Assembly (NCBI RefSeq): GCF_002214805.1
Contig: NZ_CP019914.1
Coordinates: forward strand, 1,984,001 to 2,048,000
DNA: 64,000 bases
Direction of reading: 5' to 3'
DNA from: Brachyspira hampsonii
Lineage (GTDB): Bacteria > Spirochaetota > Brachyspiria > Brachyspirales > Brachyspiraceae
Shown in pieces: positions 54,092 to 58,099 of the stretch (the first letter of the stretch is position 1; every line of letters starts with the position of its first letter). The translations under genes were made by a program, and so were the position numbers. Below the pieces are notes generated by a model. That model was not told the DNA's origin and did not search any database. It saw only the letters and a program-made list of their open reading frames with translations.

Positions 54092-54130
54092 AACGCAGAC
54101 TATTAACTTTTTTAGTTAATAATCTGCGTT
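54092..54130 (-). terminator. long hairpin at the right edge of the phage-like module
   Basis: Seventeen-position stem AACGCAGA-TATTAACT (54092-54108) with AGTTAATA-TCTGCGTT (54114-54130), one mismatch, loop five T. On the minus strand it is followed by TTTTTTTG, so it would terminate leftward transcripts entering the module. No gene is seen to its right on that strand until 55436. Confidence 0.7.
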
Positions 54131-54194
54131 CTAATATGTTTTTAGTTCTTTTATCTTTTGAAAAATAGACTTGTTTTTTTAAATTTGAGAAATT

Positions 54195-54220
54195 AGACTT
54201 GTTTGTTTTGAAACAAGTCT
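54195..54220. repeat. perfect hairpin with a direct-repeat arm
   Basis: AGACTTGTTT (54195-54204) / AAACAAGTCT (54211-54220), loop GTTTTG. A further direct copy AGACTTGTTT lies at 54167-54176. It may be a regulatory or attachment site at the module's edge. Confidence 0.5.
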
Positions 54221-54223
54221 ATT

Positions 54224-54297
54224 GTTATGTTCTCCGAAACCTATAAATGTATTCCAGCTAAAGCTGTAATACGGTTTCGGCTCACTATTATATTATT
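54224..54297. repeat. solitary diverged copy related to the 91-bp repeats
   Basis: Begins GTTATGTTCTCC and ends TTTCGGCTCACTATTATATT, which mirrors the start (GTTATGCTCGCC) and end (TTCGGCTCGCTTATTTTATT) of the 91-bp unit at 56427-56930, but the interior differs: CCGAAACC and GGTTTCGG are an 8-bp inverted pair around AGCTAAAGCT. A further CCTTCGGTAACGGCTCG patch is at about 54428-54444. The 240-base reading frame covering this stretch is not credible as a gene. Confidence 0.5.
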
Positions 54298-54472
54298 TAG
54301 GGATTACTTTTTATTTATATGTTTGCATTATAGAATGTTATATCTTTTTATTTTAATATTTTGTTGTATAATGAAGAGTAATCAGCCGAACTTACATTGT
54401 ACTATCTTAAAAGTTAAACGATACCGTCCTTCGGTAACGGCTCGTGCCGACAAATACAAGGAGTAATTTATT

Positions 54473-55429
54473 ATGACCAAACCTAAAATAGCAGTGCTTG
54501 ACGGAGCTATATTGAATCCCGGAGATATATCTTGGGGCGAAATAGAAAGCATATCAGATTTAACAGTTTATGATAGAACCGATTATGATAAAGTGCCTGA
54601 AGCTGCTAAAGATGCTTGGGGTATATTGAACAGTAAAGTTGTTATTGATAGAAAATTAATGAAATTATTGCCTAATTTAAGATATATAGGAATGCTTGCA
54701 ACAGGATATAACTGCATAGATATTGAAGCTGCTAAAGAATTGGGGATTACTGTTACAAATGTTAGGGGATACGGTCCTCAGTTTGTGGCTCAGCTTGTAA
54801 TGGCTTTTGTATTATCGCTTTCTTTTAGGATAGTTGAACATAATAATCAGGTTCATAATGGCGATTGGGTAAGATGTAAGGATTATTCTTTTAGTTCTTA
54901 TCCTTTAATGGAGATAGAAAATAAAACTATGGGTATATTTGGTTTCGGCGATATAGGAAAAGAAGTTGCCAAAATGGCTTCGGCTATGGGTATGAAAGTT
55001 TTAGTTTATTCAAGAAGCAAAAAAGAAAATGTTGAAAATGCTTCTAGTATAGATGAGCTTTTTGAGAGATCCGATTTCTTATCGCTCAATGCACCTTTAA
55101 ATAAAGAAACAGAAAATATTGTCAATAAAGATTTGCTTTCAAAGATGAAAAAAACAGCATTTTTAATTAATACTTCAAGGGGAGGATTGATAGTTGAAAA
55201 AGATTTAGCATATTCTCTTAATAACGACATCATAGCAGGGGCAGCTTTAGATGTGCTTTCAAAAGAGCCGCCTACAGGAGATAATCCTCTGCTTACAGCT
55301 AAGAATTGTTATATAACTCCTCATTTTGCCGGAAATACTTTAGAGGCTAGAACAAGGCTTATGCATAAAGTTTATGAGAATATAAAGGCATTCTTGGAAG
55401 GAAATCCTATAAATGTTTTAACTAAATAA
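54473..55429 (+). CDS. D-2-hydroxyacid dehydrogenase (glycerate dehydrogenase-like)
   Basis: 318 aa. NAD-binding Rossmann motif GFGDIG at 157-162, catalytic Arg236 in NTSRGG, and the Glu/His pair further on, His in ITPHFAG. N-terminal domain KIAVLDGAILNPGDISW and the TGYNCIDIEAAKELGI segment are typical of HprA-like enzymes that reduce hydroxypyruvate or a similar 2-oxoacid. AAGGAG before ATG 54473. It converges with the HisC-like gene 6 bp away with no terminator between. Confidence 0.88.
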   Translation: MTKPKIAVLDGAILNPGDISWGEIESISDLTVYDRTDYDKVPEAAKDAWGILNSKVVIDRKLMKLLPNLRYIGMLATGYNCIDIEAAKELGITVTNVRGYGPQFVAQLVMAFVLSLSFRIVEHNNQVHNGDWVRCKDYSFSSYPLMEIENKTMGIFGFGDIGKEVAKMASAMGMKVLVYSRSKKENVENASSIDELFERSDFLSLNAPLNKETENIVNKDLLSKMKKTAFLINTSRGGLIVEKDLAYSLNNDIIAGAALDVLSKEPPTGDNPLLTAKNCYITPHFAGNTLEARTRLMHKVYENIKAFLEGNPINVLTK

Positions 55430-55435
55430 AATTGA

Positions 55436-56422
55436 TTAATTATTATATAAAATATCTTTTAATGTATTTATAAGGATATTATTTATTTTATGAGCGGATA
55501 TTGTAACTCTTAGAAAATCAGATAGTATGTTTTCTTTATCATATTTTTTTACGAATATATTTCTTTTTATAAGTTCTTCGTATATATAATCAGATTCTTT
55601 ATTTACATGTTTTATTAAGAGGAAATTTGCTTTTGAAGGTATTACGATAAAACCTTCTTTGCTTAATATTGTATCCAATCTCTCTCTTTCCAAAACTATA
55701 TCGAATATATTATTATACGAAGTTTTTTCATCTTGCAAGGCTGCTGTCATTATAGTTTCAGAGATTTTATTTACTGAGTATTTCTGTCTTAATTTTGACA
55801 TATTTTCTATATTTTCTGAACTAGATACTATAAAGTTAATATTAAGTCCTGATATAGAATGAGAATGTGCAATGGATCTTATTATAATTAAATTTTTATA
55901 TTCATTAATTAATTTGACAGCACTTTCACCGGCAAAATTGATATATGATTCATCTATAACATATATTCCTTCATACTCTTTTAAAAACTCTTCTATTTCT
56001 TTTATATTTATAAACATACCGGTTTCAGCATTAGGATTGCTTGCTATTATAATTGAATTTTTATTTTTGATATTGTTTTTAAGAGAAATATTATAATCTT
56101 CTCTAGCTTTAATCACATCATAATGCATTTTATAATACGAAAAAATCATGATATATAAATCTCTGTAAGGCTCCTGAAGAAATATTTTATATTTATCATA
56201 AGAGTTGATAATGCATGCAAAAGCCTCATACATACCATTAACAGAAATTATATTATCATTTTCTATATTAAGATATTTAGCAATTTGCTCGTCTAATTTC
56301 TGAGGGCTGTACTCAGGAAAAAATCTTAGAGACTCAATATCAAATTTCTCAAGCTCTTTAATAATATTTTTTGACGGCTTGTATGGATTTTCATTTTTAT
56401 CTAAAAAAATTTTTTTGTTCAT
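55436..56422 (-). CDS. HisC-like aminotransferase paralogue lacking the PLP lysine
   Basis: 328 aa with clear HisC (histidinol-phosphate aminotransferase) architecture: LDKNENPYKPS, RFFPEYSP, SVNGMYEAF (HisC has GNGSDE), SNPNAETG, VIDESYINFAGES and the C-terminal FLRVTISAHKIN. In true HisC enzymes the Schiff-base lysine sits in a R-T-x-S-K-x-x-G-L-A-G motif; here the corresponding segment is RSIAHSHSISGL, so His186 replaces the lysine. It is therefore probably not a normal transaminase. No Shine-Dalgarno is visible before ATG 56422, and the 91-bp repeat array begins 5 bp upstream of the ATG. Confidence 0.75.
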   Translation of the reverse strand: MNKKIFLDKNENPYKPSKNIIKELEKFDIESLRFFPEYSPQKLDEQIAKYLNIENDNIISVNGMYEAFACIINSYDKYKIFLQEPYRDLYIMIFSYYKMHYDVIKAREDYNISLKNNIKNKNSIIIASNPNAETGMFINIKEIEEFLKEYEGIYVIDESYINFAGESAVKLINEYKNLIIIRSIAHSHSISGLNINFIVSSSENIENMSKLRQKYSVNKISETIMTAALQDEKTSYNNIFDIVLERERLDTILSKEGFIVIPSKANFLLIKHVNKESDYIYEELIKRNIFVKKYDKENILSDFLRVTISAHKINNILINTLKDILYNN

Positions 56423-56426
56423 TATC

Positions 56427-56930
56427 GTTATGCTCGCCTACGCCCAAAGAATTTACTTAATAAATTAATTCACACGCTGTGTACCTTAGGTAATTTCTTC
56501 GGCTCGCTTATTTTATTGTTATGCTCGCCTGCACCAAAAGTATTTACTTCATAAATTAACTCACACGCTGTGTACCTTCGGTAATTGCTTCGGCTCGCTT
56601 ATTTTATTGTTATGCTCGCCTGCACCAAAAGTATTTACTTCATAAATTAACTCACACGCTGTGTACCTTAGGTAATTTCTTCGGCTCGCTTATTTTATTG
56701 TTATGCTTGCCTGCACCAAAAGTATTTACTTAATAAATTAATTCACACACTGTGTACCTTCGGTAATTTCTTCGGCTCGCTTATTTTATTGTTATGCTTG
56801 CCTGCACCAAAAGTATTTACTTAATAAATTAATTCACACACTGTGTACCTTCGGTAATTTCTCAGGCTTGCTTATTTTATTGTTATGCTCGCCTGCACCA
56901 AAAGTATTTACTTAATAAATTAATTCACAC
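56427..56930. repeat. tandem array of a 91-bp unit, 5.5 copies
   Basis: Units start at GTTATGCT (56427, 56518, 56609, 56700, 56791, 56882), exactly 91 bp apart; five full units and a final 49-bp part. Each holds GCTCGCCTGCACCAAAAG, TTCACACGCTGTGTACC, TACC-TTC-GGTA (also TACC-TTA-GGTA) and TTCTTCGGCTCGC. ACAC/GTGT and TACC/GGTA can pair into small hairpins, and substitutions keep the TACC/GGTA pairing. 91 is not a multiple of three and each unit carries stops, so it is not coding. The remaining 56930-57167 is AT-rich intergenic sequence before the Xer gene. Confidence 0.97.
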
Positions 56931-57166
56931 ATATATGTTCATATATTTAGCTTTCTAATATTTAAAATGTATCATTGATAATTATCTTAATATTTTTAAA
57001 TTAGTTTACACTTTTAAATTTTATGTTTAGTTAATGTAATATTTTTATTAAGTAATGTATTATGTTTAAATAAATGGCAAATCTTGTCGATAATTAATCT
57101 AGGTTGATCATTCATAAATCAGCTTAAATTTTGTATATTATATCTTAAATTAAGAGGCAGATTTCA

Positions 57167-58099
57167 ATGTCAGTAAAACAGGTTTCCGATCAAGAAATAT
57201 TATCAATGTATTTAAACTATGAAGCAGTGGAGAAAGGATTATCATCAAATACTTTAGAATCCTATAAAAGAGATATTGTGATATATCTTGATTTTTTAAA
57301 CAGAAATAAAAAATCTATTTTAAAAGCTACAAGAAAAGATATTGAAAAATTTTTAAGTGAAAGAAAAGAACAGGGTTCAAAATCAAGAACTGTGGCTAGA
57401 AACAAAGTAAGTATAGTTAATCTTTATAAATTTTTGGTTATGGAGAATTATATTTCTAAAAACCCTACAGATAATTTAGAGGTTATACGCTTAAAAAGGG
57501 TATTGCCCGAATCACTTACAACAACAGAAGTAGATGATTTGCTTTCAGTTCATAATGAAAAAACTGATAAGGGATTAAGGGATAAAGCTATATTTGAGCT
57601 TATGTATTCTTCCGGTCTTAGAGTTAGTGAAATTTGCTCTTTAAAGATAGATGATATATTTTTTGAAGGTAAGTATTTAAAGATATGCGGTAAGGGAAAA
57701 AGAGAGAGAATAGTACCTATTAATGACAGGGCTTTAGATATTCTGCAAAGATATATTCAGACAAGCAGAGTTATAATGGTGAAAGGTAAAAAGACTTCGG
57801 AATTATTTTTAAACTTCAGAGGAGATAAGATTTCAAGAGTAGGTATTTGGAAAATAGTTAAAGAGGCGATGAAAAAAAGTAAAATAGAAAAGAATATTTA
57901 TCCTCATACTTTAAGACATAGTTTTGCAACACATCTTATACAGCATGGTGCAGATCTAAGAGCAGTACAGAGAATGCTCGGACATTCTGATATCACTACG
58001 ACAGAGATTTATACTCATGTTGATTCTGCACATCTTAAAAAACAAATATCAAAGCACCCTAAGCATTCTAAACATGCTAGACAAAATACTAATATATAA
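57167..58099 (+). CDS. tyrosine recombinase, XerC/XerD family
   Basis: 310 aa. N-terminal core-binding domain (residues 8-100, SMYLNYEAVEKGLSSNTLESYKRDI), then the catalytic domain with Arg152 (SGLRVSEI), Lys176, His247-x-x-Arg250 (PHTLRHSFATHLIQHGADL), His273 (MLGHSDITTT) and Tyr282 nucleophile. Size and sequence fit the housekeeping Xer dimer-resolution enzyme rather than a phage integrase. The C-terminus adds a His/Lys-rich tail. GAGG before ATG 57167. It could in principle also integrate mobile elements, such as the module at 47-54 kb. Confidence 0.9.
   Translation: MSVKQVSDQEILSMYLNYEAVEKGLSSNTLESYKRDIVIYLDFLNRNKKSILKATRKDIEKFLSERKEQGSKSRTVARNKVSIVNLYKFLVMENYISKNPTDNLEVIRLKRVLPESLTTTEVDDLLSVHNEKTDKGLRDKAIFELMYSSGLRVSEICSLKIDDIFFEGKYLKICGKGKRERIVPINDRALDILQRYIQTSRVIMVKGKKTSELFLNFRGDKISRVGIWKIVKEAMKKSKIEKNIYPHTLRHSFATHLIQHGADLRAVQRMLGHSDITTTEIYTHVDSAHLKKQISKHPKHSKHARQNTNI

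Follow-up and report, generated by a model that had tools for sequence, protein, structure and literature searches.

What is the tandem array that abuts the start of an aminotransferase gene in Brachyspira hampsonii, and does it belong to something wider than this locus? A preliminary description of the window (the whole stretch of 64,000 nucleotides analysed here) had offered a regulatory function, an array for an RNA-binding protein or a variable-number tandem repeat (VNTR), choosing none of them. We found that it represents a single locus within a genus-wide family of elements linked to ribosome-binding sites.

The tandem array in front of the HisC-like gene

Tandem Repeats Finder placed 5.6 copies of a 91-bp unit at 56422-56930, read on the minus strand towards the HisC-like gene, with a score of 885; the next-best tandem repeat in the window scored 100. 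The array described earlier as five and a half exact repeats is therefore real, although the repetition is imperfect, with pairwise identities of 88-98% among the five full units. Its G+C content (0.34-0.37) exceeds that of the flanks (0.20-0.28), as had been noted. On the minus strand, the covariance model described below matched unit 1 (56422-56509; E 3.3e-10), unit 2 (56513-56600; E 1.4e-9), unit 3 (56604-56691; E 4.6e-9), unit 4 (56695-56782; E 3.5e-8) and unit 5 (56786-56873; E 5.9e-6), and a partial unit 6 (56877-56930), most distant from the gene, keeps the 3' part only (98% identity over 54 bp). The gene-adjacent unit 1 carries the tail CATAACGATAA, whose final base coincides with the A of this gene's ATG, so that the array reaches into the start codon rather than beginning 5 bp upstream of it as first reported. 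Since every unit belongs to a dispersed hairpin family, the array is more than a local VNTR: it is an expanded tandem copy of a dispersed Brachyspira hairpin element.

The array unit is a longer form of the family, with extra small hairpins inside. Fourteen columns vary among the five full units, and they contain no compensatory pair; the compensated changes previously seen in the units (TTCG versus TTAG), like the CACGC/CACAC differences, are loop changes. Paired G-to-A changes fall on a conserved GA/GA mismatch, which has become AA/AA in unit 5. Compensation is genuine across the element family, but not within this array. Two units folded singly showed weak structure on the minus strand (z -0.6 and -2.1), and the entire array leader gave a more stable fold than every shuffle (z -3.47). 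Specificity for that strand is seen in fold and context alike, in agreement with the suggestion that transcription towards the HisC-like gene would yield a leader of repeated hairpins.

The gene downstream of the array (55436-56422, minus strand) encodes a class I/II aminotransferase (Pfam PF00155). Its top NCBIfam model is hisC, below the cut-off (184 of 276 bits), and more distant homologues lie elsewhere in the genome, making its substrate uncertain. No Shine-Dalgarno (SD) sequence was found before its ATG or 5' of the window array (L220), and the orthologues with empty leaders are also SD-less. As proposed in the preliminary description, repeat number was compared: the HisC-like orthologues of different species carry 0-6 tail-like ends: genomes G011 and G012 have 0 units, six species have 1-3 ends, G003 has 5 and this genome has 6. 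A search of the genome with the 91-bp unit, also proposed there, returned this array and two other loci only. For the window array itself, leader position, fold and copy-number variation are thus what we observed; there is no SD for it to bridge.

The tyrosine recombinase gene adjoining the array scores as XerD (TIGR02225, 341.9 bits versus a cut-off of 329.6). A shorter relative of the unit, first placed at 54224-54297 and said to bracket the hprA/HisC-like pair with the array, does belong to the family (54219-54287, minus strand; covariance model E 7e-11; fold z -5.2) and stands alone, with a different interior, away from gene starts. However, the bracketing looks coincidental, because this copy lies in a 223-bp exact duplication (54205-54427; partner at C1:2790826-2791048; BLASTN 223/223).

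Extent and fold of the element family

Family members share their ends only, AAGYGAGCCGAAGC on the 5' side and GCGTAGGCGARCATARCAATAA on the 3' side, around many kinds of interior. From 21 short members we derived a covariance model with 67 positions and 17 pairs; at E <= 0.1 it matched about 58 places in this genome, of which the lowest-scoring are uncertain. The family was present in 22 of 26 Brachyspira genomes, with up to 92 members per genome, and four genomes had no matches; note that 150 candidates per genome were scored by the model, so that copy numbers may be underestimates, and that model matches are biased towards the short form of the element. When an exact pattern was run against 84,980 species genomes, it hit 48 stretches, all of them in Brachyspira. 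Rfam 15 gave no gathering-score match in the window and none at E <= 1 for 54100-57200. The array had no match in a plasmid collection, a bridging element (see below) none in a phage collection, and a pattern scan of IMG/VR for the element returned nothing. In word searches, the repeats were unmentioned in the genome papers of B. intermedia, B. hyodysenteriae and B. pilosicoli, and wider literature searches likewise brought up nothing about them. This family of small folded-RNA elements is previously undescribed and was found in Brachyspira only. Its members, which are 67-115 bp long, non-coding, dispersed, structured and taxon-limited, fit the broad class of BOX-type small interspersed repeats. 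Because the target genes share no common pathway and four Brachyspira genomes lack matches, the element is dispensable.

In the fold, stem P1 pairs G-Y with R-C and is followed by GA opposite GA, and P2 usually pairs GCC with GGC. Above P2 there are usually GAA opposite GTA, 2-3 pairs and a hairpin of 10 pairs whose loop is often UUUA, this upper part being free in sequence and made up of one hairpin or of several; a bulge of about 7 unpaired AU-rich 3' bases is usual, and the single-stranded 3' tail AUARCAAUAA is conserved. This fold is strongly supported by covariation. A structure-free alignment had 92.4% of cells paired, versus 70.7 when shuffled and at most 39 when slid. Among 133 distinct members, 93.3% of cells pair (66.4% after shuffling, 28-39% after sliding), 538 cells carry changes on both sides, and compensatory changes occur at 16 of the 17 pairs, the large pair-counting alignments having been fitted to the model, whereas the starting set was aligned without it. 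Whole stems are exchanged in P1 (GC..GC and GT..AC) and, in some copies, at P2 (GAAAAAGCC..GGCTTTTTC or GAACGAGGC..GCCGAGTTC). On the other hand, the internal loops GA/GA and GAA/GTA are conserved while the stems vary, and the GA/GA mismatch was intact in 42 of 60 early copies. The sequence GGCGAGCC is the classic context of tandem sheared G-A pairs. A kink-turn was considered and rejected, since the three-base bulge is absent beside the G-A pairs. The folding strand is the sense strand, as G-U outnumbers A-C (93 versus 39) and for 100 of 110 elements the sense RNA gives the more stable fold (mean z -3.2 versus -2.0).

Elements of equivalent structure occur at G000:C1:1949763, 3042750, 1270066, 2320100 and 2655432 (L206, L205, L208, L207 and L217, respectively). 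Their P1 stems are unrelated (GCAATAAAC..GTTTATTGC, AAAAATTGT..ACAATTTTT, AAAAAATC..GATTTTTT and others), the core GAGC-hairpin-7 nt-GCGA is kept, and several have the common tail TAGCAATAATAA; a bigger superfamily of structurally equivalent elements with other P1 stems seems to exist. A chimeric element of the same genome (C1:2379169-2379234, L073) joins a 5' half from one family to a 3' half from a second, and its P1 stem is broken as a result; such a chimera suggests that elements recombine with one another. Furthermore, a subset (L025, L137, L164, L173, L269, L303, L315, L317 and similar ones) has in common an extra 5' flank of about 30 bp, TTTTTAAATATTAGAATTGAAATATAA, and stands away from gene starts; these are perhaps a longer composite repeat.

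Position relative to gene starts and empty sites

Among 60 arrays from named Brachyspira records, an open reading frame started within 80 nt on the sense side in 44, versus 2 of 55 on the opposite strand (Fisher 8e-16). Context was classified for 144 arrays, deduplicated by junction sequence. Class I comprises 59 arrays, in which the tail is followed by an SD and then by ATG, at a tail-to-SD distance of 0-2 nt in 53 of the 59. In class II (22 arrays, among which L163:5915, L285, L296 and L332 are probably mis-called starts that truly belong to class I), the tail lies at the start codon with no intervening SD. The other 63 arrays fit neither arrangement, 58 being class III and 5 having a start but no SD. 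Since 58 of the 144 are not start-adjacent in the manner of class I or II, one role cannot cover all copies.

An SD abuts the 5' side of the element in 13 of the 22 arrays of class II, none of the 59 in class I and 1 of the 63 others, that is, 13/22 versus 1/122 (Fisher 6e-12); because each orthologous locus enters the context statistics as a separate count, the P values are optimistic. These 13 SD-element-ATG arrays, all elsewhere in the genus than the window array, represent about ten genes, many of them of prophages, including prophage portal, tail sheath and baseplate genes, and have a linear SD-to-ATG spacing of 66-75 nt with the hairpin between. All 13 have a single element between the last SD and the ATG, whereas several elements are present in 26 of 59 others (p 0.003); in the two-element cases (L136, L324), AAAGGAGGA lies between the elements. 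In predicted folds of four bridging leaders, SD and AUG were outside the stem in three, and the lowest-energy fold of the fourth pairs the SD with coding sequence.

Other placements were also seen. Two near-identical inverted segments with phage-like genes (G000:C1:1831000-1835500 and 2902000-2906800; L070 and L071) have two elements each, 1,226 bp apart, one of them between TATAGGAGT and TAATG. An eight-unit array of 69 bp (L072, G000:C1:923518-924067) lies 27 nt past a stop codon, and a conserved AAATCTATTGTGTAAAAATGC motif follows its orthologous arrays in other species; this location, away from starts, is conserved.

Comparison of orthologues revealed empty sites with normal SD spacing and showed that one site may carry different interiors. 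The empty site of the sheath gene reads GGAGGAAATAAATAATG (L364), and the occupied gene reads GGAGGA[element]ATG in two species (L141, L363), whose elements differ in interior. At another phage gene ('prot'), most genomes have (A)AGGAG-5 nt-ATG and G006 has AAAAAAGGA[GGGTGAGCC...]TATG. At pgk, serA and an alanine/sodium symporter-like gene, element gain, loss and array growth occur just 5' of a retained SD, and direct tail-like copies flank the pgk element on both sides in two genomes. In the empty-site comparison, the spacer was replaced rather than cleanly duplicated as a target.

Interpretation and comparison with known systems

We consider it fairly probable that the array arose by tandem expansion of a dispersed element, specific to Brachyspira, which works as a folded RNA in 5' leaders, with structure-bridged initiation. 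Elements would spread by a DNA process and multiply locally, probably through unequal recombination or slippage. Copies stand immediately 5' of an SD or separate the SD from the start codon, the tail then being the spacer. If transcribed and folded in the cell, the element would, by folding on itself, keep SD and AUG exposed at a workable distance, so that insertion would be tolerated; it may then set translation or mRNA stability. A structured leader that leaves SD and AUG free would account for both the sense-strand constraint and the near-fixed SD/AUG geometry. Counting against this reading are the 58 arrays away from start codons, the SD-less start and weakly folding single units of the window array, the bridging leader whose SD pairs with coding sequence, and the dispensability of the element. 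A bolder form of this reading, put forward tentatively, is that of a mobile hairpin nearly invisible to the ribosome, which might insert at or inside the ribosome-binding site, its stem looping out and its tail replacing the SD-AUG spacer, as a translation-start counterpart of self-removing introns and inteins. Excision of the element from RNA with religation was rejected, because only 0-5 nt, mostly 0-3, would remain between SD and AUG of the bridged genes.

The strongest competitor, possible but rather unlikely, is a selfish REP- or MITE-like DNA repeat with no host role, whose insertion favours the polypurine SD, which survives only where it is harmless, and whose fold serves mobility, for example as a single-strand hairpin that an enzyme recognises. 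Patchy presence across species, differing interiors at one site, copies away from gene starts and the tail copies flanking pgk in two genomes would all suit such a repeat, and comparable pneumococcal repeats were judged parasitic (PMC3049150). However, the RNA-like constraints are strand-specific, and the fact that no more than one element intervenes between SD and ATG argues for selection on translation. Nor was a larger parent element with the same ends recognised, and the REP-associated Y1 transposase (PF01797) was found in 0 of 26 Brachyspira genomes (positive controls, 5 of 14). As mobilisers, both Y1, absent from these genomes, and the neighbouring recombinase, which scores as XerD, were rejected.

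We regard as improbable a regulatory RNA whose GA/GA loops are read by a trans-acting protein or small RNA, with arrays adding binding sites to a scattered regulon. Unpaired loops and tail are indeed conserved within otherwise free stems, but the targets are incoherent (pgk, serA, rpe-like, prophage portal, sheath and baseplate genes, and the aminotransferase) and presence of the element at a gene shifts between close species. Template switching can perfect palindromes of this kind, and changes among the array units look unselected; that the covariation is such a replication effect and the copies neutral debris is nevertheless very improbable, since the same process should erase the GA/GA and GAA/GTA mismatches, yet both persist, and orientation and the 0-2 nt SD distance are left unexplained. 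An assembly artefact, which had been raised as a possible refutation, or an ordinary neutral VNTR is barely credible even though tandem copy number varies by species, since a comparable array, 88% identical over 464 bp, is present in the independently assembled near relative G003, the units are non-identical, and single units are dispersed across the genus, which excludes either of the two as a full explanation.

If structure-bridged initiation is right, the family offers natural, replicated with/without pairs for studying how initiation depends on structure that lies beside the SD and AUG or between them, a question usually approached with designed leaders, and it may tune glycolytic, serine-pathway and prophage genes. 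As an unrecognised repeat family in a gut spirochaete genus, it may also confuse start-site annotation.

Several known systems resemble the element in part. The pneumococcal BOX, RUP and SPRITE repeats are likewise short, non-coding and dispersed, with strong secondary structure, a modular interior, variable tandem number and near-restriction to one group. They are over-represented between convergent genes (PMC3049150), whereas the Brachyspira elements, compared with them in sequence through Rfam, are co-oriented with gene starts and abut them. REP/BIME sequences are also imperfect palindromes with conserved stem mismatches (here GA/GA and GAA/GTA), single or clustered. However, they have RAYT (IS200/IS605-type Y1) transposases, which the 26 genomes lack; they lie at 3' rather than 5' ends of genes; and their foot GTAG/CTAC is replaced here by AAGYGAGCC...GGCGARC. 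Integron attC sites (Vibrio cholerae repeats) share folded palindromes with a conserved foot and variable top, and a tyrosine recombinase gene adjoins the window array, but that recombinase scores as XerD, and the boxes GTTRRRY/RYYYAAC and gene cassettes are absent; in the plus-strand end, GYTATGYTCGCC, position 5 is T and GTT is variable at its third base. In T4 genes 38 and 25, a hairpin brings together SD and AUG at linear spacings of 22 and 27 nt (PMC3014915), and in the same way a hairpin between SD and AUG would shorten the long spacing of 66-75 nt in Brachyspira. The T4 hairpins are single and gene-specific, whereas in Brachyspira one dispersed family stands at about ten genes, where it may affect translation.
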